48,009 bases of DNA, from positions 1 to 48,009 of the forward strand of contig CANDJC010000022.1 in NCBI GenBank assembly GCA_947384955.1, given 5' to 3'. The notes under the pieces were generated by a model, which ran no database searches, was not told where the DNA came from, and saw only the letters and a list, made by a program, of their open reading frames with translations. Shown here in pieces: positions 1,510 through 34,715 of this stretch. The DNA comes from an uncultured Eubacterium sp. (GTDB lineage Bacteria > Bacillota > Clostridia > Lachnospirales > Lachnospiraceae). The position numbers and the translations under genes were made by a program. How positions within the stretch are numbered: position 1 is the first letter of the stretch; each line of letters starts with the position of its first letter.

Positions 1510-2796
1510 TCAGCCTGTTTTGCGGACAGCAAGCCTGACTGTTACACAGGCTCCGTCTGGAGTATTGTTTGAAAGCTCTAAGCTTCCGCCGTGTTTCTGG
1601 CAGAGGATGCGGCTCGTAGCCAGGCCCATTCCCATATGCTCTCCCGTCTGATCCTCCGAATAAAAAATGGTGTCCTTTTTACGGAGCATTGCCTTTGGAA
1701 AGCCTCTGCCGTCGTCGGATATGGCCACTGTAAGCATGCCATCGGCAAGGGAGCAGCAAAAGCTTACCCTGCCTGCAGCGTATCGGACGGCATTGGAAAA
1801 GATATTCTCAGCAATACGGTAAAATATCTGCTCATCTAATTGCACCCGGCATTCGGGTACGGCAAAATGGCATGCAGTCTCCAGGCTGTGCTGCTGCGCA
1901 AGCATTGAAAGGCTTTCCACAGCCCTTTTCAAAAAATCCGGCAGCCAGACAGCAGAATACTTTATATCCGTTTCTTCAATGGCATTCAGGTCGCGGATAT
2001 AATCGGTATAACGCTCAAGCCGTTTTGCGGTAACAGCCAGATTCGACAATGTGTGCCGCAGTTCTTCGTCACTCAGGTTTCCATCTGCAAAGCACTGCTG
2101 CATATATTCCACATATCCTTCGGCAATCGCGATGGGATTTCGAAGGTCGTGCGCCACGGATGCCTGCAAAATCCTGCGCTGCTCAAGCATGTTCCACAGC
2201 TGCCGGTTATTATCATAAAGCGCCTGGCGCATTTCTTCAAAAGCTGCGCAGAGTCTGCCCAGCTCATCATTGCTGTTATATTCAACCGAAAAATCAAGGT
2301 CCTGCCCTATAATATGCTTTGCCGCATCGGCAAGAACCTGAATGGGCAGCGACAGCTTTTTCCTGTAAAACCACCATGCACACAGCCCAATGCCTGCCAT
2401 CGAATAGAGAAACGGAAGCCCGGCCATGGAAATGCCTGCCGCCCGGTACAAGAGCTGCTGTTTTGGACGGAGTGACCAGAAACCGGCTTCCGCTCTCTCG
2501 ATTGTGAATTCTGTATCCTCCAGGCTCCCTTTTTCGTACTCCCCGTCAGGGACAAGCATACAAAGCTCAGAGGGACTGTCCAGGGTAAATCTCTGCTCTC
2601 CCTGTAATACGCTCCCGTCCGGCAGAACCGTCCGGGTATGCAGCCAGACCTCTCTGGAATCGGGAAGTATCGCTCTTTGTATGCGCCGGCATCCATAAAT
2701 CGTCAGAACAGATACCGTGAAAACAAGAATCATCATAACGGCTGCCGCCCGGATAAAAGCTCTTTTCATCGACATCTGTCTCTTCATTTTTTCCAT
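1510..2796 (-). CDS. Sensor histidine kinase (OmpR-partner type)
   Basis: This is a 428-residue membrane sensor kinase. Transmembrane segments lie at about 13-34 and 123-144, with an extracytoplasmic sensor of about 85 residues between them. A HAMP-like linker follows (about 145-198), then a phosphoacceptor box ASVAHDLRNP with His216, and an ATPase domain with N box NIFSNAVRYA, DDGRGF and GMGLATS. It should phosphorylate the response regulator encoded just upstream. Its start overlaps the end of that gene by 13 bases, or by ATGA if the second Met (2787) is used; neither start has a clear ribosome site, which suggests translational coupling. The signal sensed is unknown. Confidence 0.9.
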   Translation of the reverse strand: MEKMKRQMSMKRAFIRAAAVMMILVFTVSVLTIYGCRRIQRAILPDSREVWLHTRTVLPDGSVLQGEQRFTLDSPSELCMLVPDGEYEKGSLEDTEFTIERAEAGFWSLRPKQQLLYRAAGISMAGLPFLYSMAGIGLCAWWFYRKKLSLPIQVLADAAKHIIGQDLDFSVEYNSNDELGRLCAAFEEMRQALYDNNRQLWNMLEQRRILQASVAHDLRNPIAIAEGYVEYMQQCFADGNLSDEELRHTLSNLAVTAKRLERYTDYIRDLNAIEETDIKYSAVWLPDFLKRAVESLSMLAQQHSLETACHFAVPECRVQLDEQIFYRIAENIFSNAVRYAAGRVSFCCSLADGMLTVAISDDGRGFPKAMLRKKDTIFYSEDQTGEHMGMGLATSRILCQKHGGSLELSNNTPDGACVTVRLAVRKTG

Positions 2797-3457
2797 CTGT
2801 AGCCCATCCCCCAGACTGTTTCGATATATTCCCTGCCTGTCGCTTCCGTCAGTTTATTTCTGATTTTTCGGATATGCTCTTTAATGACATTACTGTCTCC
2901 TTCGGCATCAAGCCCCCAGACGGCTTCATAAATCCGTTCTCTGTCGAATACCTGACCGGCGTTTCTCATCAAAAACTCCACAATATCAAATTCACGGTTT
3001 GATAAGCGAAACGGCTTTTCCCCATAATAAATCGTGCGTTCTGCAAGATTTACAATCAGTCCCTGGGAAACTGCGATTCTGGGCGTGCACCGGGTCCTCT
3101 CATCCCTGCGCAGATGGGCCGCCACCCTTGCGGTCAGCTCTGTAAGCTGAACGGCTTGGTTATGTAGTCATCACCGCCGGACTGCAGCCCGTTTACCTTG
3201 TCCTGCTCGGTAATCCGGGCCGTCAGAAACAAAATCGGGCAGATAACATTGCTTCGGATAATTCTGCACAGCTCCAGTCCATCCGTTTCCGGCATATTAA
3301 TATCGAGCAGAATCAAATCCGGATAGATATTCAGCATGGATACTGCCTGCTGCGCATTTTCCGCCGCAAAGGTTATGTATCCGCACTTTTGTAAGTGGCT
3401 GGACAATAATTCTGTCAGCATTTTTTCATCATCAACAATGAGTATTTTATATGCCAT
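2784..3457 (-). pseudogene. Frameshifted OmpR-family response regulator
   Basis: The first part (3457 down to about 3140) is a receiver domain with the acidic pair VDDEK, the phosphoacceptor in LLDINMPETDG, and the Lys in TKPFS. The second part (to 2784) is a winged-helix DNA-binding domain with RLSNREFDIVEFL and the C-terminal YIETVWGMGYRW. The two parts are in different frames. Adding one G near 3140 (CAG AGC TGA to CAG GAG CTG A) restores the expected LQELTARVAAHLRR linker, giving about 224 residues. The gene heads the operon with the kinase. As read, the protein stops after the receiver and could not bind DNA. It is either a recent mutation or a base-calling error; intact operators at its own promoter and at the lipoprotein promoter favour a system that was working recently. 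Confidence 0.85.
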
Positions 3458-3666: not shown

Positions 3667-5235
3667 TTATTCCGCCTCTTCAATTTTGCACTGATGCTCC
3701 TTATTTATGGAATCATAGTTTATTCCCGCTATAAAAATACGGCCCGCGCCTTCCTGTTTTAGTTTCTGGCAGTATTCTCTTTCCCGAATCTGGCGGATAG
3801 CAGCCTCGGGGGTACTGTCGGCTTTTAATTCAATTACAATGCCGGGCAGATTTTTTCTTCTAGGATAAAATAAAAAGTCAGCAAATCCTTTTCCGCTTTT
3901 TTCCTCACGCACTATGCGGTACTGGTTTCTGGCTGACAGATAGGCAAGCGTTACGACACAGGCCAGGCTGTTTTCATCATTATATTTTAGAATCGGAATT
4001 TCGCTGTTATGAATATTGTGAAGGGACGCTGCAACAACATCCGCGTTCCGATGCAGTGTCGCATCCAGTATTTCCTCAGAATTTCTGACAAGCTCTGCCA
4101 CATATCCAAAGCTGTTATCTTCCAGGGCGTTTTCAAACTCCGTCATCAGTTCCTTATCCGGAATGTGCAGCTCTCCTTCATAATAAGACAGCAGCCCGCA
4201 TGTAATCATTGCCGCATAGATTTCCTTCCTGTTCGACGGGGCATTCTGCCCTGCTGCATAGCCTTTTTTTATTTCAGCTCTGACTGGCAGGCCGCTGACC
4301 ATTCTGACCACATCATCCCTGACTTCTCCGATATTATATTTTAAGAAAAATAATACTTCATCCATTTTTCCTGTGGCGGTCCAGTAATCCTGGCATTTTC
4401 CGTTGATAAGCGCCAGTACCACAGAACGCGGATTGTATACTTTGGAGCCGGAATTTGTGAAATATCCATTGTACCATTCTGCCAGTTCATCCGCTGTGAG
4501 CTTTTCCTGCCTCTTACAAAGATTTAACACCTCTTTTTCCGTAAATCCAAAATACTCTTCAAATAAAGAATCCTGAAGCATCGTATATTCATCGAACATA
4601 TTCAGCGCCGAACCTGTGCTGTATTTTTTTATCGGAAGCACGCCTGTCATATAAACCAGTGCCGCATAGGGCTGGTCTTTTAGCAAATCCCTTAAAAATT
4701 CTAAGAAATCATTCTGATTTTCCTCATACAGATTATGGCTGAAAATATAGTCCCATTCATCTATGAAAAAAATAAATTCATCTCCGCATGCCGCAAGCAT
4801 ATCCGGGATTCTGCGAAATTTCTTTTGCTTTAACTGCGGGTATGCTTCTAAGATGTCATTTTTTAAGTTTTCTTTTATCAGCGACAGATAATCCTGATAC
4901 GCACTGCCATTTTCCGGGAGGCTGCTCAGGCTGATATTCAGAATATGATACCTGTTTAAATGTTCTATATAATGTCTGCTGCGGCTGATTTCCAGGCTGT
5001 CAAACAGAGCTTTTGTATCGTATGCCCGGCCATAGTATGCTCCAAGCATGTTTAAAGCTGAGGTCTTTCCAAAGCGGCGGGGCTTTGTGATGCATAAAAA
5101 CCGGTTCTTTGTATGAATGCGTTCGTTTATTTTTTCTATCATAGCAGATTTATCTATAAAATATTTATCATGATAAAGCATGTTAAAGTCTCTGTATGCT
5201 GTGTCTGTATTCAGATATGCTGCCATTTTTTTCAC
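3667..5235 (-). CDS. AAA-ATPase-like protein with C-terminal PD-(D/E)XK domain
   Basis: This 522-residue protein matches the family that joins an AAA-ATPase-like domain (Pfam type AAA-ATPase_like) to a PD-(D/E)XK nuclease-like domain. The N-terminal half has a Walker A variant KPRRFGKTS (Lys57) and Walker B FIFFIDEWDYIF. The C-terminal half has FADFLFYPRR followed by GIVIELKAD, which gives the Asp and Glu-x-Lys of a nuclease core. The family is widespread and often multicopy in Clostridia and Bacteroidetes; its role is not firmly known, and mobile-element or defence functions have been suggested. Length and motifs look intact. The gene stands alone, with a repeat element upstream. Confidence 0.85.
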   Translation of the reverse strand: MKKMAAYLNTDTAYRDFNMLYHDKYFIDKSAMIEKINERIHTKNRFLCITKPRRFGKTSALNMLGAYYGRAYDTKALFDSLEISRSRHYIEHLNRYHILNISLSSLPENGSAYQDYLSLIKENLKNDILEAYPQLKQKKFRRIPDMLAACGDEFIFFIDEWDYIFSHNLYEENQNDFLEFLRDLLKDQPYAALVYMTGVLPIKKYSTGSALNMFDEYTMLQDSLFEEYFGFTEKEVLNLCKRQEKLTADELAEWYNGYFTNSGSKVYNPRSVVLALINGKCQDYWTATGKMDEVLFFLKYNIGEVRDDVVRMVSGLPVRAEIKKGYAAGQNAPSNRKEIYAAMITCGLLSYYEGELHIPDKELMTEFENALEDNSFGYVAELVRNSEEILDATLHRNADVVAASLHNIHNSEIPILKYNDENSLACVVTLAYLSARNQYRIVREEKSGKGFADFLFYPRRKNLPGIVIELKADSTPEAAIRQIREREYCQKLKQEGAGRIFIAGINYDSINKEHQCKIEEAE

Positions 5236-5417: not shown

Positions 5418-5690
5418 GGACGCCGGGTGACGGGAAGATGCCCTGGATTCCTGTGACGGCTCCGGAACGTTAAGAATCCCTAAGCATTCTGCATTTACGC
5501 TGTGGTACCGGACGGCGCTGCACCTGGTTCGCCCTGGCCTGCAGCCAGCAGCTAAAGGTGCCGCTTCGGCTTCGCCGCCTGGTTATCGGGCAGAATGCTA
5601 AGGGATTCTAAACGTTCCTCCAATGTTACAGGAATCCAGGGCATCTTCCCGCCACCCGGCTGGGTTTCATAAGATTTACATGAGAAAATG
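5418..5690 (+). repeat. Family-1 palindromic element
   Basis: The outer arms 5423-5457 and 5625-5659 are complementary at 33 of 35 positions, with one of the two exceptions a G-T pair. Inside lies a second stem (GAATCCCTAAGCATTCTGC near 5473 with GCAGAATGCTAAGGGATTC near 5590), and then a core holding CAGCTAAAGGTGCCGCTTCG and CGGCTTCGCCGCCTGGTT. A flank with TTTACATG (about 5675) is shared with other copies. It lies between convergently placed minus-strand genes and contains no credible gene. Confidence 0.9.
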
Positions 5691-6210: not shown

Positions 6211-6516
6211 ATGGCTTCATTTGCGCAAAACCTCAAAAATCTCAGAATCAGCCGTCATCTCACACAAAAAGAGCTTGCACAGCGTTTATCACTGACCTCT
6301 TCTGTCATATCTGCATATGAAAATAATATCCGCATGCCTTCCTATGATGTACTGTTCCAGCTGGCATCTGTCTTTCACTGCAGCTGTGATTATCTTCTCG
6401 GCTATGCGGATGACGAGAAAGCTCTGCCCTCAAAATATATCGACGTATCCGATTTAACTGACAGACAGATTCAGGCACTGCTCTATCTTGCCGATACCTT
6501 CCGAAATCCTTCTTAA
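6211..6516 (+). CDS. XRE-family helix-turn-helix regulator
   Basis: This is a 101-residue DNA-binding protein. Residues about 5-62 form a Cro/CI-type HTH: LKNLRISRHLTQKELAQRL, then SSVISAYENNIRMPSYDVL, then LASVFHCSCDYLLG. The C-terminal 35 residues (DVSDLTDRQIQALLYLADTF) form a short helix, as in many clostridial one-domain regulators. The ribosome site AAAAGGAG is well placed before the ATG. It is divergent from the 98-residue gene and next to the trypsin/STAND operon, so it might control either. No membrane or sensor domain is present. Confidence 0.85.
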   Translation: MASFAQNLKNLRISRHLTQKELAQRLSLTSSVISAYENNIRMPSYDVLFQLASVFHCSCDYLLGYADDEKALPSKYIDVSDLTDRQIQALLYLADTFRNPS

Positions 6517-6520
6517 AGCA

Positions 6521-6544
6521 CCAAAAAGTGCCTGGCATTTTTGG
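6521..6544 (+). terminator. Possible terminator after the XRE gene
   Basis: CCAAAAAGTGCC and GGCATTTTTGG form a hairpin with one unpaired base, immediately after the stop codon at 6516. The T-rich arm is short, so termination strength is uncertain. Confidence 0.4.
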
Positions 6545-6960
6545 ACAAACGCTGATTCTGCTCTTATTGAAGCCTGGAATTGTACTTATCGCATATCTGC
6601 ACTAAATCTGGTGGCAATTCTTTGGAAAGCTTTGAGCTTTAGAAAAAATTTCTCCACCAGATGGCGTTCCTTATAAAGCCCCGTCACAGAGACACTGAAA
6701 TTTAGCACCTTTTCTGGAAGGAATGGCCGGCTCGCCGCCGCGGTCATAGATATAATCAATGAACTTACTGCTGTCATACCCACGGTCAGCCAGAACGCTG
6801 CTTTCCTTTATATTTAAGTGTTCAATGTATTCCAAACGCTTTTTTGATGCAGTCATATGTCCAGCCGTCATTACAGGGTTTCTGATCCAGCTTCAGTAAT
6901 ATCTGTATTTCTGTCTGGATGTGGTACAAGGCAATTGTTCAGGTACCTAAACTATTATAA
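6545..6960 (-). mobile_element. Decayed IS5-family transposase fragment
   Basis: Two frames on the minus strand carry pieces of a DDE transposase of the IS5 group. One (about 6871-6671) has KESSVLADRGYDSSKFIDYI and RGGEPAIPSRKGAKFQ; the other (about 6700-6586) has LYKERHLVEKFFLKLKAFQ and RIATRF, which contains the catalytic Glu region. The pieces are joined only if bases are added near 6685, and the end (DKYNSRLQ) is in yet another frame, so the element is inactive. The N-terminal part with the first catalytic Asp is missing. No clear terminal inverted repeats were found. It marks past insertion at the edge of the accessory island. Confidence 0.8.
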
Positions 6961-6978
6961 TGCTTAGAACTAAACTAT

Positions 6979-9900
6979 CTAATATTCAGCTAAGATGCTG
7001 GCATTGATATATTCAATATTGTTAACAGAAGCCGCAAACCACCTGTCATATCCATCCAGCAAAACATATTTATCTTTGATGATCACAATTCCCACAGGTT
7101 TGGATAAAATACCCTGGCTGTAAAAATAATCTAAAATTTCATTTACTTCCATTTGTGAAGGCTGATGTGATACATAACCTTTCGGAATCATAATACTGTC
7201 TGTTTTCAAATAAACGGATTTCTTTTGGTTATTTTTTACTTTTAAAACCGTCAAAAGGTTATTACATATTTCGTCGCCAGAATCATAATCCTCTTCTATT
7301 TTCTGTACAAATGTTCTTTCAATACGGTTTAATTTTTCAATTACCAATGTACGGTTATCCTGTATCGCATCCTGAAGTATCCTCATATAATATTTAAATA
7401 TGGAAAATTCATCACTATACTGATCATATAATATCTCTGCCTCTTCAATGATGCCGCCAAGCATGCTGCCCGCCGTCAGTTTTGATAAAACAGACAGCAG
7501 TCTGCATAGCTGAATAGCGAAATCAATGCTATGAAATAACAGGAATGCATTTCTGGTTTTTATCACAAGCATGCTTACCCTGTAAATATTCTTGTGATAA
7601 TATAGACAATGCTGTATTTGACGTTTCAGATTATCCAGTTTTACTTTAGCAATCATATTTTTATTGACATGATCCAAAATTTTTTTCAAATATCCGTTAA
7701 ACTCGGTATCAGAAAAATAATCTGCTATTTTTTCAACTTCAAAATAGTTTTCCAGGTTTTCATTTTCTGAAATAGAATGGCTCACTTCAGATAATGAATG
7801 ACAATATTCCAATGCTAAATCCAGAGTACCGTAAAGATGATAGATCTTCTTCTGCTTATTAATATATTGTGAAAAATTATGTGTCTCAATCGAATCTTTC
7901 ACGAACACTGTCAGCGTTTTTTGGAACAGGAACAGGACTTTCATACCAACATGTTTGATTTCGAGATTAATGAACTGGTCATATAATTCACCATGGCTGA
8001 TTATTTTTTTTATACTTGCATAATACAATAACTGTGCATAGTATAGAGCAATACGGTCATTTTTTTGATACCTGTATTTCAGTTCTTGCAAACGGTAGTA
8101 ATATTCCTGTTTAGGCTTCACCCAAAAAAGCTTTAAAATAGTCTCTGCATAGTTTTCTGCCAAAATATTCATATTTTGCTTCGCAGTATTTTGTTCTATT
8201 ATCTCAAACTGTTCATATAATTCATTACAATCGATGACTCTTTTTATTACGGCGCTGCATAATAACATGGTATAACTGGCAGCAATCTTACTGACTGTGC
8301 TGTGTTCCTTATAAAGGTTCTGAAGATATATATAATATTTTTTGTCAGAGGTTTGCAAAAAAAGCCTTAAAATCGTTTCGGCATATATACCAATAAATAT
8401 ATTGATTTTTTTCTCAGCCTGCATATTCTCAAAATAGGCTATCGTTTGATCATTCGCAGATAATTGTATGATTCTTTCTGCAAAAAAATCAAATATAATG
8501 CGACAATGCAGCTCGTGAAATTTTGTAAGCTTTTCGATTGCGAAAGCAAGATCAAATTTTCTGCTGCTTATGAATTTAACATATTGTCTTTGTATATAGC
8601 TGCTTCTTAGATGATAAACAATTACAGACTCCAAATACTCTTCCATATCAATATCTAATTCTAAATCTTTTGTTTGATATAATATATCTGTAAGGATTAT
8701 AGTTTCTTTCTGAGATTTGAATTCCTTCATGTTTTTTAGAAGAAATGATCTTAACAAAAGAATGCTTTGATCTGAAAAACGATGATATTTTACGAGCTCA
8801 GAGATGGATTCAAGCACAGAGATTCTGTATGAATCGCTGATATTATCCAAAAACGGGTCTGAAAGTCTTAGTATATTTTCCAAGACATGATAAGTATCAT
8901 CTGCAATTAAGTTTGGATGCTTTGATAATGTAATTAATCCGATTAGATAATACTCTAAAAATATATTGGTATCCATATGTTTTTCAAATAAATCTTTTAA
9001 TTCGCTTACAATGAAACTGCATTGTTTGTAGTCCAGTCTGTTTGAAAGCCATATTAATTTCTGTGCTCTTTCAATCTCTGCATTCATATCCGCCTTCAAG
9101 GAAGGTTTTGTTTTATGAATTTCTCCTTCATCAGGATGGCTCTCATCTGTTTTTGCCGGATTTTTAACGGAAGCTTCAATTATCAGGTTTATATAATGAC
9201 TGGAATTAGTAATATCAGCACGGCTCAGCCAGGCTAAAGCATCTTCAATAGGCAAAATATGTTTCCTGAATTGATCGGTAATAAACTCTCCATAAACTTG
9301 ATGCACGAATTTACTGTCACATAATAGTAATAGTTCAGATAATATTTTATTCACATTATCCAGAGTGGTTTTTAAATGACACAGACATTGCGTATACACA
9401 GCAATAAATTCTTCATTCTCGAAGAATTTAGGGAAAACGGTTCTTAATTCTTCATAAAATTCCCATGAAATGCAGCTATTATAGCAAAGAATCTGTCTGC
9501 ACAAATCGATTAGCTCAGATGTGACTTCACCAATATAATCAGGAGTCGTTTTCAGGCTGCATAAACACTGCATATTTACAAAGATAAACTCACTATTTTT
9601 ATAATTTTTTTTACAGATCATTTTGAGTTCCTTATAGAGAGCCCACGAAGCATAAATATCAATTTCCTTAGAACATAGAATTTTTATTGCCCTGGCATAG
9701 CACAGGCCAATTTCCATATTATGGGTGAAGCTGCTTGTTTCATACAGCTTCTTTAAGTTATAAAACTCTTTTTTAGCAGCAAAATAGGATTTCCTTTCTA
9801 TAACACTGACTAACGAATAAGCATATTCGACTGCAATTTCAAGTGAACTGCAATATTCATTATACAGATTTTTTAATTCTGATAACAGCCTCTTTGTTTT

Positions 9901-11880
9901 TTTCAAATTGAACTCGTCCATCATGCTAGACAGTCCATATGCATATACAATTGCATTTTCTTCATTTTTATTTTGCATATACAATAAGCCAAGACGTTTT
10001 AAGCTTCTTGCAGAATTGATACGATTATCCCTTATAATCCGTTCATATAAAAAATCTGTAAAATAAAAGAATTGCTCACCCGACATAGTGCTAGTATCAG
10101 CATTGACTAAAAACGATCGGATACTGGAATCGTTTTCATAAAAATAATCATCCAGCAGCCTGTTATAAAAACTATATGCTTTTTGAGGAAATATGAGAGA
10201 CTTTTGAACGATTATTTTAATTATATCGCTATTTATATAGTTGCTAAATATATAATATTCTCCTAAAAGATCCGGTTTTAAACCTTCAAAATAAAGATTC
10301 CCCTCATTATCCTCGATCAAAAAACCTGTCTGTTGAAAGAGTTTTATAATATCTTTACGGTGATATTTCATTGCTTCCTGGAATACAGTGAGCTCCTCCA
10401 GACAGATAACTTTTATATCATCTGGATATTTCAGTCCATCTATGATTGTTGAATAAATTAGTACATTTAGATAAGCATTTACAAGCAAGTCATCATCAAT
10501 AACATTTTTCAAAATGACTTTTATACGATGTAATTCTCTAGCCAAAACGCTTTCTAAAATAAAAGTTTTATTCCACTTCGATAAATCTCTGTTCTCTATC
10601 CAGGCGTCAATAAGAAAAATTAAATATAAAGGTCTGTTTAATCCTGGATCTAATATACCTAATTGTTTTATAATAGTTTGAACCGTGGAACTGTCAATCG
10701 AAGCATTTACATTATAATGATAATAACTTTGTGCAATAGATATCAGCTCCTCTTCCATCAGCGATGACAGTACCAGAAATGGCGGATCTAACTGCATATT
10801 CGGATTATAGCACAGATTTAACAATGCATCATATTCACAATTTCTTTCATTGATACGTTCCACCCATTTTGATGTCTTGTAGCTTTTACCATATCTCTCC
10901 AGCAAAAGTACCCTGACTTTATAATCAAATTGATTATTTGATAAGATACAGATCCACTTTCCAATATCACGAATATTTTGCTGTACATAATCCAATACAA
11001 TTAATGTATTTTTTTTAATAGCTGTGGTTCTTGACATCAGTGAATCATAGTCATAGGTACTTAACATGACAGCATCCCAGACATTTTCATTTAAACTTTT
11101 CGCAAACTCGTATGCTAATCTGCTTTTTCCGATACCGCCTGCACCAGTTACCGCCCACCACCGGAACTCATGTTCGCTGGAACAAAATTTGAATATCTGA
11201 TTCATCTGTTCTTTTCTTCCAAAAAAGTCAATCGTTTCGGAACGGTAATGAAATGGATTCATGATCAGCTTTTTGGATTTATTTAGCAAGCTTTGTCTGT
11301 CATTGTTAATATACCTGCCAAAAAGACTGCGAAAAATACCGTCTTCTGCTTCGAGAAAATAAGATACAGGAATCACATTAAAATTCGTTAGTTTGCTGTC
11401 TATATGTATTCTTGCTACCAGCCCCAATAACGCATCGCCGACAAATACAGGGGCTCCTGAAAAGCCCCTCGTAACTTCTTCGTTACTTGCCACCGTTACA
11501 TAATCACCGCGATAGCAGTAATCATCTGATATGTCAATAAAATTAAAAGAGATTACTTTTCCGCTGACATGCCTTCCGTGTGGATAAATTTGAAATTTAG
11601 CTCCTTGCGGAAATCCTAGTATTTCTACAGGATCATTCAGCCTGGGTTTTACCATATCCGGTTTGTATTTTTCCTGAGTATTCACAGCTAAGACAGCAAT
11701 ATCAATACATTTTTCCCTGCCTGTGTACTGTATCTTAACAGGATACATATCATCGCTGGCAAAATAATTTGTTTCACTGCTTAAAATATGATCTGCCGTA
11801 ATGATATATTTATCAAGCAGTAATCCTGAACCTAAAAGTTTATGATCTGTATTAAATATCCGAACTGCATTTTTAACCAT
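6979..11880 (-). CDS. Trypsin-like protease / STAND NTPase / helical-repeat protein with C-terminal ParB-like domain
   Basis: This 1633-residue protein has four parts. Residues 1-180 form a trypsin-like serine protease with a complete triad: His31 in ITADHIL, Asp60 in CIDIAVL, and Ser141 in RGFSGAPVF. Residues about 205-480 form a STAND-type P-loop ATPase: Walker A TGAGGIGKSR (Lys252), Walker B TLIVLDYVQ (Asp297), and LLLERYG with Arg329. Residues about 480-1540 are helical repeats of TPR type, suited to target recognition. Residues 1564-1633 resemble a ParB/sulfiredoxin fold: PSQMEVNEILDYF, ILSKPVGIVII, then LLDGYDRWFAA. The start abuts the stop of the Trypco1-like gene. Known STAND systems (for example Avs) use an N-terminal effector, a central switch and a C-terminal sensor; by analogy, target binding would release proteolysis. 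A role in anti-phage conflict is inferred. Codon use is AT-rich compared with flanking genes. Confidence 0.8.
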   Translation of the reverse strand: MVKNAVRIFNTDHKLLGSGLLLDKYIITADHILSSETNYFASDDMYPVKIQYTGREKCIDIAVLAVNTQEKYKPDMVKPRLNDPVEILGFPQGAKFQIYPHGRHVSGKVISFNFIDISDDYCYRGDYVTVASNEEVTRGFSGAPVFVGDALLGLVARIHIDSKLTNFNVIPVSYFLEAEDGIFRSLFGRYINNDRQSLLNKSKKLIMNPFHYRSETIDFFGRKEQMNQIFKFCSSEHEFRWWAVTGAGGIGKSRLAYEFAKSLNENVWDAVMLSTYDYDSLMSRTTAIKKNTLIVLDYVQQNIRDIGKWICILSNNQFDYKVRVLLLERYGKSYKTSKWVERINERNCEYDALLNLCYNPNMQLDPPFLVLSSLMEEELISIAQSYYHYNVNASIDSSTVQTIIKQLGILDPGLNRPLYLIFLIDAWIENRDLSKWNKTFILESVLARELHRIKVILKNVIDDDLLVNAYLNVLIYSTIIDGLKYPDDIKVICLEELTVFQEAMKYHRKDIIKLFQQTGFLIEDNEGNLYFEGLKPDLLGEYYIFSNYINSDIIKIIVQKSLIFPQKAYSFYNRLLDDYFYENDSSIRSFLVNADTSTMSGEQFFYFTDFLYERIIRDNRINSARSLKRLGLLYMQNKNEENAIVYAYGLSSMMDEFNLKKTKRLLSELKNLYNEYCSSLEIAVEYAYSLVSVIERKSYFAAKKEFYNLKKLYETSSFTHNMEIGLCYARAIKILCSKEIDIYASWALYKELKMICKKNYKNSEFIFVNMQCLCSLKTTPDYIGEVTSELIDLCRQILCYNSCISWEFYEELRTVFPKFFENEEFIAVYTQCLCHLKTTLDNVNKILSELLLLCDSKFVHQVYGEFITDQFRKHILPIEDALAWLSRADITNSSHYINLIIEASVKNPAKTDESHPDEGEIHKTKPSLKADMNAEIERAQKLIWLSNRLDYKQCSFIVSELKDLFEKHMDTNIFLEYYLIGLITLSKHPNLIADDTYHVLENILRLSDPFLDNISDSYRISVLESISELVKYHRFSDQSILLLRSFLLKNMKEFKSQKETIILTDILYQTKDLELDIDMEEYLESVIVYHLRSSYIQRQYVKFISSRKFDLAFAIEKLTKFHELHCRIIFDFFAERIIQLSANDQTIAYFENMQAEKKINIFIGIYAETILRLFLQTSDKKYYIYLQNLYKEHSTVSKIAASYTMLLCSAVIKRVIDCNELYEQFEIIEQNTAKQNMNILAENYAETILKLFWVKPKQEYYYRLQELKYRYQKNDRIALYYAQLLYYASIKKIISHGELYDQFINLEIKHVGMKVLFLFQKTLTVFVKDSIETHNFSQYINKQKKIYHLYGTLDLALEYCHSLSEVSHSISENENLENYFEVEKIADYFSDTEFNGYLKKILDHVNKNMIAKVKLDNLKRQIQHCLYYHKNIYRVSMLVIKTRNAFLLFHSIDFAIQLCRLLSVLSKLTAGSMLGGIIEEAEILYDQYSDEFSIFKYYMRILQDAIQDNRTLVIEKLNRIERTFVQKIEEDYDSGDEICNNLLTVLKVKNNQKKSVYLKTDSIMIPKGYVSHQPSQMEVNEILDYFYSQGILSKPVGIVIIKDKYVLLDGYDRWFAASVNNIEYINASILAEY

Positions 11881-12207
11881 TTATTCCTCACCCTTAAAAG
11901 TAACCGTTACAGATAAATTTACTTCTGATGTTGAACTGGCTATGATCAGATTTCCTTCTGCACTCAGAGCTGTTCCTACAGTAATACTTACTTCGCCTAT
12001 GCTGGTGCTGTTTAATTCCTGTCTGATCTTATCGGCGGTTGTATTTAAAAAAGACACAATTGTTCGAATAGAACTGTCAAATGCTTTTTGACCAACTTCA
12101 AGCACGGTATCTATCCCTCCTAAGCCGCCGTCGTAATCATTGTTTTGCTTTAACTCAACTTCAACAAATTGGTTTTCGCCATATTCTAATCTGATTGTTT
12201 TACCCAT
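11881..12207 (-). CDS. Trypsin-co-occurring domain (Trypco1-like) small protein
   Basis: This 108-residue protein resembles the trypsin-co-occurring domain family (CU044_2847/Trypco1 type): an N-terminal beta-rich part (TIRLEYGENQFVEVEL), then a helix with VGQKAFDSSIRTIVSFLN, then strands ending SEVNLSVTVTFKGEE with GEVSITVGTALSAEGNLIIA. Such proteins occur next to trypsin-like/NTPase conflict proteins and are thought to be partners, inhibitors or substrates of the protease. The start at 12207 is preferred over 12216, because AAAGGA lies 8 bases before the second ATG and directly abuts the first. Its stop codon is followed at once by the start of the protease gene, so the two are co-translated. 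Confidence 0.7.
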   Translation of the reverse strand: MGKTIRLEYGENQFVEVELKQNNDYDGGLGGIDTVLEVGQKAFDSSIRTIVSFLNTTADKIRQELNSTSIGEVSITVGTALSAEGNLIIASSTSEVNLSVTVTFKGEE

Positions 12208-12234: not shown

Positions 12235-12263
12235 ATTATACCATAGATGCAGTCTGTTTTAAA
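12235..12263 (-). promoter_or_regulatory. Promoter of the Trypco1-protease operon
   Basis: Minus strand TTTAAA (12258-12263), 17-bp spacer, then TATAAT (12235-12240), 28 bases before the preferred start codon. No operator symmetry was noticed. Confidence 0.6.
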
Positions 12264-12474
12264 CTACTATTTTACAGTCAGATCATAATAAGTTGCAATT
12301 CTGATAAAAAGAGACCAGAACAGGCAAGGTTCCTCGTGTAAAGTTTGGGGACACAAGAATGTCATTTTCATTCTCCTTTCAGATCCTGTTTTCTGCGTAT
12401 CCGTTTCAGGGTTTTCTCTCGCTTTTTGATTCTTCCGCAGCTGCATCTGCCACAAGATTTAACTGCATTCATAA
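12264..12474. other. Intergenic stretch without a recognised gene
   Basis: Between the protease operon promoter and the nifJ terminator no credible coding region, repeat or structured element was recognised. Short open frames here lack ribosome sites and recognisable motifs. Confidence 0.5.
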
Positions 12475-12507
12475 AAAAACTGCTGCATTTATCATGCAGC
12501 AGTTTTT
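12475..12507 (-). terminator. Terminator of nifJ
   Basis: A perfect 14-bp inverted repeat (AAAAACTGCTGCAT and ATGCAGCAGTTTTT, loop 5) is followed on the minus strand by further T, ten bases after the nifJ stop. This is a classical intrinsic terminator. Confidence 0.92.
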
Positions 12508-12516
12508 CAGCAAATC

Positions 12517-15500
12517 TTATTTATAAAGCTCTACTAATCTTTCTAAATGTGTATAACGTTCTTTTGCAGCTTCCTCAGAATCTTTGAACAGCTTCTGTGC
12601 TCTCTCCGGGAAGGACCTTGCAAGACGGCTGTAACGTGTCTCGTTGTTCAGGAAATCCTGATAGCTTCCATCGCCTGGCTTAGAAGACAGGGTAAATGGA
12701 TTCTTTCCTTCTGCCTTTAATGCAGGATTGAAGGAGAACAGGTTCCAGTATCCGGCAGCAACTGCCTTCTTCATTTCATCCTGGCAGTGGTTCATGCCGC
12801 CTTTTACTCCGTGTAATTCACAAGGAGCATAGCCGATAATCAGAGACGGGCCGTTGTATGCTTCTGCTTCAGCAAGAACTTTTACTGCATGTGCCATGTT
12901 TGCGCCAAGTGCAATCTGTGCTACGTATACATAGCCGTAGCTCATAGCGATTTCTGCAAGGCTCTTCTTGCTGACATCTTTGCCGGCAGCTGCGAACTGG
13001 CATACTTCACCGATATTCGAAGCCTTCGATGCCTGGCCGCCTGTATTGGAATACATTTCTGTATCGAATACCATAACGTTTACATTCTCGCCGGAAGCAA
13101 GTACATGGTCTAATCCGCCGAAGCCGATATCATATGCCCATCCGTCACCGCCGAAAATCCATACAGATTTCTTTGCGAGATAATCTTTCTTATCCACTGC
13201 TGCAGCAGCATCCGGACATCCGGCAGCAGCAGCTTTTTCTAATTCTGCCACTAATGCTTCTGTTGCAGGTGTGTTTGCTTTTGTATCGTCTTTTGTTTCC
13301 ATAAATTTCGCAAATGCATCTTTTAATGCTGCATCAGCCTTGTCAGACTCTGCACATTTCTTAGCGCTTGCGATTGCCTGGTCACGGAGTACCTGCTGGC
13401 CAATCTGCATGCCTAAGCCGTGTTCTGCATTGTCTTCAAATAAGGAGTTTGCCCATGCCGGACCTTTCTTGGAATCCTTATGTACGGTATATGGTGATGT
13501 AGCTGCAGGACCGCCCCAGATAGAAGAGCATCCTGTTGCATTGGAAATATACATATGCTCGCCAAACAGCTGTGTAATCAGACGTGCATAAGATGTTTCT
13601 GCACAGCCTGCACAGGAGCCTGAGAACTCAAGCAGCGGCTGGTTGAACTGAGAGCCTTTTACGGTATTGTCAGCCGGCATGCCAGGTTTCTTGCCTACAT
13701 TTGCTACGAGGTAATCGAATACCGGCTGTTCGTCAGCCTGAGATTCCTGCGGAACCATTTCGATAGCGCCTACCGGACATACGGTAATACATTCGCCGCA
13801 TCCCATACAGTCTAACGGAGATACGCTCATTGTATACTTGTATTCGCCAGCCTTTGGTTTTGTATCAGCAAGCTTGATATTTGCAGGAGCTGCCTTTGCT
13901 TCGTCATCGCTTAACATAAACGGACGGATGGTAGCATGCGAGCATACAAATGCACACTGGTTACACTGAATACATTTTTCTGCATTCCATGTAGGAACCG
14001 TTACAGCAGTACCGCGTTTTTCATAAGCGGAAGCGCCGTGTTCGAACTGTCCGTCCGGATTGCCCATAAATGCGGATACCGGAAGACTGTCGCCATCCAT
14101 TAAGGAAATCGGCTCCATTAATTCTTTTACCATCTTCACCGTTTCCGGACGTCCTGTTAACTCAGCCGGAGCCGGGTCAGCTGCCGGATTTGACCAGGAA
14201 GCAGGAATTTCTACTTTATGTACAGCATCTACGCCGGCATCGATTGCTTTGTAGTTCATTTCTACAACAGCGTCGCCTTTCTTGCCGTAAGATTTCTTAG
14301 CTGCCTGTTTCATAAAGTCAACTGCATCGTTAATCGGCATTACATTTGCCAGTTTAAAGAATGCAGACTGTAAAATCGTATTGGTGCGCTTGCCCATACC
14401 GATTTCAATTGCTTTGTCAATAGCGTTGATTGTGTATAACTGAATATTGTTGTCAGCAATGTATTTCTTTGCTTCTGCATTTAAATGGTGCTCTAATTCT
14501 TCATCGGACCACTGGCAGTTAATCATAAATACGCCGCCCGGTTTCACATCCTGCACCATCTTAAAGCCTTTGTTTACATAAGCAGGGTTGTGGCATGCCA
14601 CGAAATCTGCCTGGTTGATATAGTAAGGGCTTCTGATTGGCTTGTCGCCGAAACGCAGATGCGAAATGGTAACACCGCCTGTTTTCTTCGAGTCATACTG
14701 GAAGTATGCCTGGATAAATTTGTCTGTATGGTCGCCGATAATCTTTGTAGAGTTCTTATTTGCGCCAACCGTGCCGTCGCCGCCAAGACCCCAGAACTTG
14801 CATTCTACCGTGCCTTCAGCTGCTGTAATCGGAGCCGGTTTTACTTCCGGAAGGCTTAAGTTTGTCACATCATCCACAATACCGATTGTGAAACGAGGCT
14901 TCGGAGCGTCTTTTTCTAATTCTTTGTATACAGCGAATACAGAAGATGGCGGTGTATCTTTGGAACCTAAGCCGTAACGGCCGCCTGTTAATACAATCGT
15001 GTCTAAGCCTGCTTCGCGAAGCGTAGCTGCTACGTCTAAGTATAACGGGTCGCCTAATGAGCCAGGCTCTTTTGTTCTGTCAAGAACAGCTACTTTTTTC
15101 ACTGTCTTAGGAAGCACTTTTGTAAATGCATCCGAAACCCATGGACGGTATAAACGTACTTTTACAAGACCTACTTTTTCACCCTTTGCCGTTAAATAAT
15201 CAATGACTTCTTCTGCCACGTCATTGATAGAGCCCATTGCTACGATAACACGCTCTGCATCCGGCGCGCCGTAGTAATTGAACAGGTCATAATCTGTGCC
15301 AAGCTTTTCGTTAATCTTAGCCATATATTTCGATACAACTGCCGGCAGCTCGTCATAAGCGGTGTTGCATGCTTCACGATGCTGGAAGAATACGTCTCCG
15401 TTTTCATGAGAACCGCGCATAGCCGGATGTTCCGGATTTAACGCATGATCACGGAATGCCTTTACAGCGTCCATATTGCACATTTCTTTTAAATCTGCGT

Positions 15501-16062
15501 AATCCCATGTTTCAATTTTCTGAATTTCATGAGATGTACGGAATCCGTCGAAGAAGTTTAAGAACGGAACTTTGCCTTCAATTGTCGCTAAATGCGCAAC
15601 CGGGCTTAAGTCCATAACTTCCTGCGGGTTTGTCTCACATAACATTGCAAAACCAGTCTGACGGCATGCATAAACGTCGCTATGATCGCCGAAAATGTTC
15701 AAAGACTGTGTTGATACGGTACGTGCAGATACATCAAATACGCATGGAAGCTGTTCGCCAGCAATTTTGTACATATTCGGAATCATAAGCAAAAGACCCT
15801 GGGATGCCGTAAAGGTCGTTGTCAGAGCTCCGGCAGCAAGAGAACCGTGCACTGCACCTGCAGCGCCTGCTTCTGATTCCATTTCTACTACCTTAACCTG
15901 ATTTCCGAAAATGTTGTCCTGTCCTGCTGCAGACCACTGGTCTACGGTGTCTGCCATTGGGCTGGATGGGGTGATCGGGTAAATAGCTGCAACTTCTGTA
16001 TACGCATACGCTACATGAGCTGCTGCGGTATTACCGTCCATAGATTTTTTTGCTCTAGGCAT
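12517..16062 (-). CDS. nifJ: Pyruvate:ferredoxin (flavodoxin) oxidoreductase
   Basis: This 1181-residue single-chain enzyme oxidises pyruvate with CoA to acetyl-CoA and CO2, and passes electrons to ferredoxin or flavodoxin. It is central to anaerobic energy metabolism in clostridia. The pyrimidine-binding domain begins with TEVAAIYPITPSSPMAD. A gamma-type domain has KFWGLGGDGTVGANKN. Two 4Fe-4S motifs are seen: CIQCNQCAFVC and CMGCGECITVCP. The TPP domain has FSGSCAGCAETSYARL and WIFGGDGWAYDIG. Length is normal for the family and no break was seen. The ribosome site AGGAGGATATC precedes the ATG. The gene stands alone with its own promoter and terminator. Confidence 0.97.
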   Translation of the reverse strand: MPRAKKSMDGNTAAAHVAYAYTEVAAIYPITPSSPMADTVDQWSAAGQDNIFGNQVKVVEMESEAGAAGAVHGSLAAGALTTTFTASQGLLLMIPNMYKIAGEQLPCVFDVSARTVSTQSLNIFGDHSDVYACRQTGFAMLCETNPQEVMDLSPVAHLATIEGKVPFLNFFDGFRTSHEIQKIETWDYADLKEMCNMDAVKAFRDHALNPEHPAMRGSHENGDVFFQHREACNTAYDELPAVVSKYMAKINEKLGTDYDLFNYYGAPDAERVIVAMGSINDVAEEVIDYLTAKGEKVGLVKVRLYRPWVSDAFTKVLPKTVKKVAVLDRTKEPGSLGDPLYLDVAATLREAGLDTIVLTGGRYGLGSKDTPPSSVFAVYKELEKDAPKPRFTIGIVDDVTNLSLPEVKPAPITAAEGTVECKFWGLGGDGTVGANKNSTKIIGDHTDKFIQAYFQYDSKKTGGVTISHLRFGDKPIRSPYYINQADFVACHNPAYVNKGFKMVQDVKPGGVFMINCQWSDEELEHHLNAEAKKYIADNNIQLYTINAIDKAIEIGMGKRTNTILQSAFFKLANVMPINDAVDFMKQAAKKSYGKKGDAVVEMNYKAIDAGVDAVHKVEIPASWSNPAADPAPAELTGRPETVKMVKELMEPISLMDGDSLPVSAFMGNPDGQFEHGASAYEKRGTAVTVPTWNAEKCIQCNQCAFVCSHATIRPFMLSDDEAKAAPANIKLADTKPKAGEYKYTMSVSPLDCMGCGECITVCPVGAIEMVPQESQADEQPVFDYLVANVGKKPGMPADNTVKGSQFNQPLLEFSGSCAGCAETSYARLITQLFGEHMYISNATGCSSIWGGPAATSPYTVHKDSKKGPAWANSLFEDNAEHGLGMQIGQQVLRDQAIASAKKCAESDKADAALKDAFAKFMETKDDTKANTPATEALVAELEKAAAAGCPDAAAAVDKKDYLAKKSVWIFGGDGWAYDIGFGGLDHVLASGENVNVMVFDTEMYSNTGGQASKASNIGEVCQFAAAGKDVSKKSLAEIAMSYGYVYVAQIALGANMAHAVKVLAEAEAYNGPSLIIGYAPCELHGVKGGMNHCQDEMKKAVAAGYWNLFSFNPALKAEGKNPFTLSSKPGDGSYQDFLNNETRYSRLARSFPERAQKLFKDSEEAAKERYTHLERLVELYK

Positions 16063-34001: not shown

Positions 34002-34278
34002 CCGGACGCCGGGAGAGGGGAGTGGCACGGGCTTCCAGCGGCGGCTCCAGAATGTTAAGAATCCCTAGGCATTCTGCATCCAGACTGTGGCCCCGGACGG
34101 TCGCGGCACCTAGTTCGCCCTGGCCTTCTGCCAGCAGCTAAAGGTGCCGCTTCGGCTTCGCCGCCTGGTTCTTGAGCAGAATGCCAAGGGATTCTAAACA
34201 TTCTTCCAATGCCGCTGGAAGCCCGTGCCACTCCCCTCTCCCGGCTGGTTTTTGAGGTAAGTTTACATGGCATGTTCT
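34002..34278 (+). repeat. Family-1 palindromic element, perfect outer stem
   Basis: Arms 34009-34042 and 34211-34244 are perfectly complementary over 34 bp. The second stem (AATCCCTAGGCATTCTGC and GCAGAATGCCAAGGGATT) and the core (GCGGCACCTAG with CTAAAGGTGCCGC) follow. The right flank has TTTACATGGCATGTTCTG. Confidence 0.92.
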
Positions 34279-34452: not shown

Positions 34453-34715
34453 AACCAGCCGGATGACGGGGAGATGACCTGGCTTCCTGTGACATTGGAA
34501 GAATGTTTAGAATCCCTTAGTATTCTGCTCAATAACCAGGCGGCGAAGCCGAAGCGGCACCTTTAGCTGCTGGCTGCAGGCCAGGGCGAACTAGGTGCCG
34601 CGACCGTCCGGGGCCACAGCCTGAATGCAGAATACTTAGGGATTCTTAACATTCTGGAACCGGAACTGGAAGCCAGGTCATCTCCCCGTCATCCGGCGTC
34701 CGCGAAGCCACTCAT
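34453..34715 (-). repeat. Family-1 palindromic element, perfect outer stem
   Basis: Arms 34459-34487 and 34668-34696 are perfectly complementary over 29 bp. The core orientation is opposite to that of the neighbouring copy at 34002, so the two form an inverted pair. Arm sequences of the two copies differ at many positions. Confidence 0.92.

Follow-up and report, generated by a model that had tools for sequence, protein, structure and literature searches.

An uncultured Eubacterium sp. (Lachnospiraceae; contig CANDJC010000022.1) carries a two-gene, minus-strand operon, with both frames intact, that encodes a Trypco1-family protein and a large protein joining a trypsin-like domain, a STAND NTPase and a helical arm to a C-terminal domain of ParB/sulfiredoxin (ParB/Srx) fold. 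We read this operon as an NLR-like (STAND) conflict system, most likely directed against phages or other invading elements, at a probability of roughly 0.6, with the large protein most likely acting as a phage-triggered suicide alarm. The two genes, the aligned catalytic triad, the NTPase fold with its intact P-loop and the ParB/Srx fold are observed, as are the pairing of trypco genes with trypsin-STANDs elsewhere and the varied N-terminal effectors on this NTPase clade. The defence function is suggested by analogy, from the swapping of the effector with SIR2 and TIR domains. Protease-armed STANDs with Trypco partners were known already, as a prediction; the ParB/Srx tip was not seen in the relatives examined. 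Table 1 lists the features within the window, by which we mean the whole 48,009-nt stretch of DNA analysed.

Table 1. Features of the operon and its upstream flank (window positions)
Feature	Position	Strand	Remark
Trypco1-family protein, 108 aa	11884..12207 plus stop to 11881	(-)	PF19493, NF041216
1633-aa trypsin-STAND-helical-ParB/Srx protein	6979..11880	(-)	single intact open frame
Trypsin-like peptidase domain, residues 1-189; H31, D60, S141	11314..11880	(-)	alignments, profiles
STAND NTPase, ~residues 205-640; P-loop 246-253, D297	9961..11268	(-)	nucleotide-binding, helical, winged-helix parts
Helical, probably repeat-bearing arm, ~residues 641-1554	7219..9960	(-)	middle inferred
ParB/sulfiredoxin-fold domain, residues 1555-1633, motif LLDGYDRW	6982..7218	(-)	
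Promoter-like site of operon, TTTAAA-17-TATAAT, extended TG	12235..12263	(-)	consensus match only
Terminator-like hairpin + T-run after nifJ	12473..12504	(-)	by eye; absent from the terminator scan's 3 sites
nifJ, POR domains	12517-16062	(-)	upstream of operon

Both open reading frames lie where the sequence-only reading had put them, and the TAA of the 108-aa gene abuts the ATG of the 1633-aa gene with zero gap. An SD-like AAAGGA stands 8 nt upstream of the ATG at 12207 and favours the 108-aa start over a 111-aa ORF. Consensus matches of this type number 45 in the region against 28.4 expected, and the promoter-like site is one of them. The hairpin after nifJ would separate that gene from the operon, and Rfam gave no match anywhere in the window.

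Sequence comparison supports residues 1-189 as a trypsin-like peptidase domain with an intact triad. Trypsin_2 (PF13365) matched the large protein at E 1.8e-4 with 22.7 bits, below its cut-off of 27.6, and the three proposed catalytic residues were invariant in an alignment with four actinobacterial or cyanobacterial trypsin domains, as well as against a clostridial trypsin domain (L156, 33% identity) that itself passes the PF13365 cut-off at 30.6 bits. They stand in His-Asp-Ser order, and the GxSG around S141 reads GFSGAP. Single-sequence hhalign of this part against nine trypsin domains gave 50% (E 1.6e-4), compared with at most 0.13% for seven other windows and at most 0.74% for 40 shuffles. 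The AlphaFold model of the part is strand-rich and of low confidence (pLDDT 24-52), so the trypsin assignment rests on sequence. Searched alone against plasmids, the domain found no match at E 0.01.

The small protein belongs to Trypco1, as had been proposed, with 44.1 bits to PF19493 (E 3.3e-11, cut-off 24.6) and 39.1 bits to NCBIfam NF041216 (cut-off 23), and it adjoins a trypsin-like domain. PMC7159879 defines Trypco1 and Trypco2 as trypsin partners, in conflict systems that are predicted. The 108-aa protein aligns end to end with a Trypco1 of a Nostoc plasmid (35% identity), where the following gene encodes a trypsin-TIR-AAA_35 protein. Annotated trypco2 genes lay directly upstream of a trypsin-STAND gene in all three plasmid loci fetched (of four hits in total), and trypco2-like ORFs, recognised by eye, did so in 5/5 Streptomyces chromosomal loci. 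A second clostridial case came from the search of 373 order genomes with the large protein: genome G1093, of another family, holds an operon (L161) whose Trypco1 gene, at 22.9 bits (E 1.3e-4), narrowly misses the cut-off and also aligned with ours. The next ORF is trypsin-like, has the triad and is 33% identical to our protein over the trypsin part. It runs into a STAND-like start and then the contig end, up to which the operon could be read; its neighbours, named by eye, are ribosomal-protein and obg-type genes. The Trypco1-trypsin cassette is thus not a single accident. Another ORF of G1093 (L163), found in a search of that one genome, has a linker stretch in common with it and leads on into an AAA_16/NB-ARC-like P-loop, and the cassette may ride on more than one switch. 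A further Trypco1 match, in G415 (22.2 bits, below cut-off), fell in what by eye is a phage tape-measure-like ORF and was set aside.

Of the two folds whose absence the sequence-only reading had named as refuting it, trypsin and P-loop, structure prediction yielded the P-loop domain: in contrast to the trypsin part, the model is confident from residue 211 on (AlphaFold pLDDT mostly 86-96). Among the matches listed, the NTPase model fits NLRC4, Apaf-1 and NRC2 over 272-328 aa, with ClpA/ClpC and RFC chains scoring about alike over some 200 aa. A P-loop, a Walker B and a C-terminal winged-helix-type part, the marks of a STAND protein, are all present. The P-loop residues G246, G248, G249, G251, K252 and S253 and the Walker-B D297, among which K252 and D297 had been named before, are invariant over 34 aligned rows, over which the P536-D537/E541 signature is also kept. 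Against nSTAND_NTPase5 (PF25199) the large protein scored 13.9 bits, below the cut-off of 34, and is therefore only kin of that family; among its relatives L009 passed with 36.4 bits and L003 remained under with 31.4. Pfam gave no nSTAND3 match in the 1633-aa protein.

Relatives were collected by scanning genome_contigs (84,980 species) with the clostridial NTPase alignment and a single P-loop pattern, which gave 46 loci, 42 of them with a readable ORF. Judged by eye, 14 of these 42 have a SIR2-like N-terminus, trypsin N-termini occur in five Streptomyces loci only, and others are transmembrane or unassigned. All five SIR2-like relatives that were scanned match ThsA models, four match LmuA and two Avs5; L003 and L005, which by eye are identical to L016 and L037, exceed the cut-off of PF13289 (SIR2_2), and L036 matches ThsB TIR-like models. 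SIR2 and TIR effectors at the same position in clostridial NTPase relatives were counted for an immune role. L036, a TIR-STAND of 1678 aa, seems by eye to end in BspA-like leucine-rich repeats. Some SIR2-STAND relatives are seemingly split over two ORFs (L090/L091 in the congener G695, L155 in G1172 of another family), and the genome studied here holds a second STAND of the NTPase clade (L002, G000:C50), 858 aa long, with a short Gly-containing N-terminus and no trypsin. Among viral contigs, the NTPase alignment found two loci: L124 lies close to the end of its contig, and in L125 the match spans 58 residues of a 1365-aa ORF that starts with an HTH-like part.

NTPase trees place the large protein with the clostridial rows (support 98/97 with 29 rows, 94/93 with 38 rows) and apart from eight actinobacterial trypsin-STANDs; its position directly beside the SIR2 rows has support of only 83-85/68. 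Forcing it to group with the actinobacterial sequences lowers the likelihood by 12.2 log units (AU p 0.030). Import of the whole operon from actinobacteria is accordingly rejected, moderately, by trees that have long branches, drop nine rows in the 29-row version and draw on a search pattern that favoured clostridial sequences. The alignment A3 and the trees hold 33 of the 46 loci; the other 13 comprise four without a readable ORF, one fragmented, one near copy, one with N and six distant or short. With moderate strength, the trees suggest that a clostridial chassis acquired the trypsin effector, rather than the effector arriving with an actinobacterial switch.

The effector-switch-sensor order proposed from the sequence alone was supported, but the sequence-only reading had overlooked the ParB/Srx-fold domain at the C-terminus. 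Its estimate of about 1000 residues of helical repeats held in part: residues 586-640 were modelled as helix with confidence and 1400-1550 with low confidence, and a TPR-like profile made from repeats in the relatives found one fair unit at 641-685. Residues ~641-1554 are probably a helical arm bearing repeats, its middle being inferred. Beyond it, residues 1555-1633 form a separate domain with the fold of the ParB/sulfiredoxin superfamily, and profile-profile comparison with ParB gave 88-92%. Single-sequence hmmscan listed no match to ParB_N (PF02195) at E up to 10. Sequence searches of the PDB returned nothing for the full 1633-aa protein and, for the tip, matches of E 0.2 or worse to 1vk1 and to free serine kinase but also to chemokines, so that these sequence matches alone prove nothing. 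The tip carries the motif DGYDR and lacks cysteine, which excludes sulfiredoxin chemistry.

When the ParB/Srx module was searched by hmmsearch in 54 loci (the 46 NTPase relatives and eight others, within the stretch of DNA available for each), nothing was listed at E up to 1, and a match to the tip in its own genome (G000:C227, E 0.49) was read as chance. A search with a module pattern returned 22 loci, of which 14 went into A7; L129, L135, L143 and L145 were read as chance, and L126 and L128 (ParB-like but divergent) and the copies L138 and L144 were left out. The pattern was built from the window's own motif, so likeness in the motif is partly by construction, that in the rest of the module and in the fold not. 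ParB/Srx-like modules with I-x-I-P...DGY-x-x-Y-x-x-AK (L127-L147, L148, L150, L110, L112) occur in numerous small proteins of phages, plasmids and clostridia, and also form the end of one protein from a Priestia plasmid and of one phage protein whose annotation is DnaJ-like chaperone. In two of these proteins scanned against Pfam, the module part had no match except one weak DUF2661 below cut-off. The module profile also weakly matches the C-terminal ends of two RHS/polymorphic-toxin-like ORFs (L153 and L154; E 1.4e-4 and 1.8e-5), with the motif NGHHRW.

By analogy with NLRs and Avs5, the C-terminal half would be the sensor, the STAND the switch and the trypsin the effector. At rest, the NTPase and helical arm would keep the protein closed. 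A component of the invader could then bind the C-terminal half, at the arm, the tip or both, and nucleotide exchange at the P-loop would lead to oligomerisation, as in STAND proteins, bringing the N-terminal trypsin-like domains together and activating them. These might cut cell or invader proteins, or first Trypco1, and thereby stop growth or phage replication. Trypco1, encoded first in the operon, may be an obligate partner of the protease, whether as adaptor, stabiliser of a pro-form or first substrate. The tip could be a nucleotide or DNA reader, a decoy of the phage- and plasmid-type module, or a second effector. We put forward, at low probability, a more specific version, a four-part bacterial NLR: its sensor end would have taken up a phage/plasmid-type ParB/Srx module, to serve as an integrated decoy or to read CTP/ATP or DNA, and phage or plasmid factors meeting that module would trigger a Trypco1-dependent trypsin effector, the clostridial Trypco1-trypsin cassette swapping for SIR2 on the same STAND chassis.

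That the tip is instead the true effector, a nuclease or NTP-consuming enzyme released by the trypsin once the STAND switch fires, is unlikely. The matches to RHS/polymorphic-toxin-like C-termini fit it, as do ParB-fold toxins with a DGHHR motif (PMC3482391), single-strand DNA nicking cited for ParB/Srx members (PMC12839542) and the effector release by proteolysis proposed for ternary conflict systems (PMC7159879). The tip, however, has DGYDR instead of DGHHR and no cysteine, and the Priestia plasmid and DnaJ-like phage proteins with related modules suggest a binding rather than a toxic role.

The rarity in clostridia that had been supposed was borne out: Trypco1 was over cut-off in 1/299 family, 1/391 class and 1/398 phylum genomes, overlapping samples in which the genome was always this one. 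The large protein had any match in 4/299 family, 2/13 genus and 6/373 order genomes, this genome included each time, with up to two candidates scored per genome in the family and order searches; in these searches, matches in the trypsin part were confined to this genome and G1093, and the full 1633-aa protein to 1/13 genus genomes. No whole-protein match was found in phages, and no viral contig was confirmed for the 1633-aa protein, the module alignment A4 or the Trypco1 pair. The two genes have GC contents of 32.8 and 37.9%, compared with 46.3% for nifJ and 47.9% for 18121-46772. nifJ is present in 13/13 genus genomes, and in all ten congener loci fetched (of 12 congeners) similarity ends at the end of nifJ (12471-12517); the sequence past it differs from the window and partly among the congeners. 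Low GC, sparse distribution and this break agree with the horizontal gain suggested earlier, and the simplest reading of the operon is an accessory unit, acquired horizontally, at a site that varies. Contamination of the assembly (4.67%) was considered as a source and rejected: the nifJ of this contig shares 83-88% identity with that of the 12 congeners, so the contig, as far as its nifJ flank was compared, fits the genus.

STAND proteins also include transcription regulators, and many are regulators. Were the large protein a STAND signalling regulator outside immunity, such as one controlling a stress or envelope pathway by proteolysis, the sensor kinase and the response-regulator-like ORFs at 1510-3457, on the far side, would fit, but the presence in 1/13 genus genomes, the AT-rich composition, the variable place beside nifJ and the relatives with SIR2/TIR effectors make this improbable. 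An addiction unit, with Trypco1 keeping the protease in check and the STAND parts serving as no more than a scaffold, would explain the small upstream partner gene without a gap, as in many toxin-antitoxin pairs, and the foreign base composition, but a P-loop, Walker B and P536-D537/E541 kept over 34 rows argue for a working switch and the size of the large protein is unusual for such pairs, so that we consider it very improbable.

Several known systems resemble the conflict system proposed here in part. Kaur et al. 2020 (PMC7159879) describe Trypco1/2 next to VMAP proteins that carry trypsin, in MoxR-vWA ternary systems found mostly in multicellular bacteria, and propose that the peptidase domains deploy effectors by proteolytic processing. 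As in those systems, a Trypco gene here directly adjoins a gene in which a conflict-system protein is fused to a trypsin-like domain; unlike them, ours is a two-gene unit with a ParB/Srx tip in a clostridial host, with neither MoxR nor vWA among the 13 proteins scanned at 169-24501. The Streptomyces and Kitasatospora pairs (L008, L009, L011, L048, L050, L052-L054), of which L009 carries TPRs, share the order of a small Trypco gene followed by a trypsin-STAND, but their partner is Trypco2 (three annotated, five by eye), their NTPase belongs to another clade and no ParB/Srx module was found in their loci. Clostridial SIR2-STAND-TPR proteins (for example L015, L016, L021 and L041) are the closest NTPase relatives and likewise have the effector-STAND-repeat layout, as does Avs5, but with SIR2 in place of trypsin and no ParB/Srx module found in their loci. 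Avs5 was shown experimentally to be an anti-jumbo-phage STAND of PF13289-STAND-repeat layout with nSTAND3, whose activation needs the C-terminal repeats (PMC12931631); its SIR2 N-terminus and nSTAND3 set it apart from our protein. The tip shares its fold and a DG-x-x-R region with ParB, Noc, sulfiredoxin, free serine kinase, SbnI and Tox-ParB, and differs in standing at the C-terminus of a STAND protein, without cysteine and with no DNA-binding domain after it. Searches of the open-access literature (among it PMC7159879, PMC10907252, PMC8195603, PMC12931631, PMC3482391 and PMC12839542) brought up no trypsin-STAND-ParB protein, no tested Trypco1 system and no phage test of a Trypco1 trypsin-STAND. 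PADLOC has no model that matches the 108-aa or the 1633-aa protein, or the Streptomyces trypsin-STAND L048.

The compact two-gene form, with intact triad and P-loop, could be moved into a laboratory strain, which would make testable both the role of Trypco1 and the idea that bacteria use proteases as NLR-type effectors against phages. For an NLR-like protein, the ParB/Srx tip would be an input of a new kind, or a second output.

The window is not a clear defence island. The 13 scanned proteins include nifJ, an ABC-transporter-type ATPase, a sensor kinase and an AAA-ATPase_like/PDDEXK_9 gene. Among 118 of the 125 proteins neighbouring the relatives, a survey that excluded those over 700 aa beforehand and had no control set, type I methyltransferase models match at least three and specificity-subunit models at least three. 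Downstream of the operon, the XRE gene named by the sequence-only reading is present at 6211-6516 (HTH_3), and 6520-6990 contains, at ~6750-6830 (-), what we take by eye, judging from a motif, to be possible remains of a DDE-type transposase. The gene at 3667-5235 (GC 41.6%) encodes the AAA-ATPase_like protein with its C-terminal PDDEXK_9 nuclease domain and is possibly another accessory conflict gene. An imperfect inverted repeat lies at 5422-5660, with 71-nt arms that are 86% complementary and 97 nt apart. Four stretches (6-79, 5461-5533, 34004-34119 and 34585-34660) match the same part of the congener locus L115 and are thus probably copies of a repeated element of the genus.
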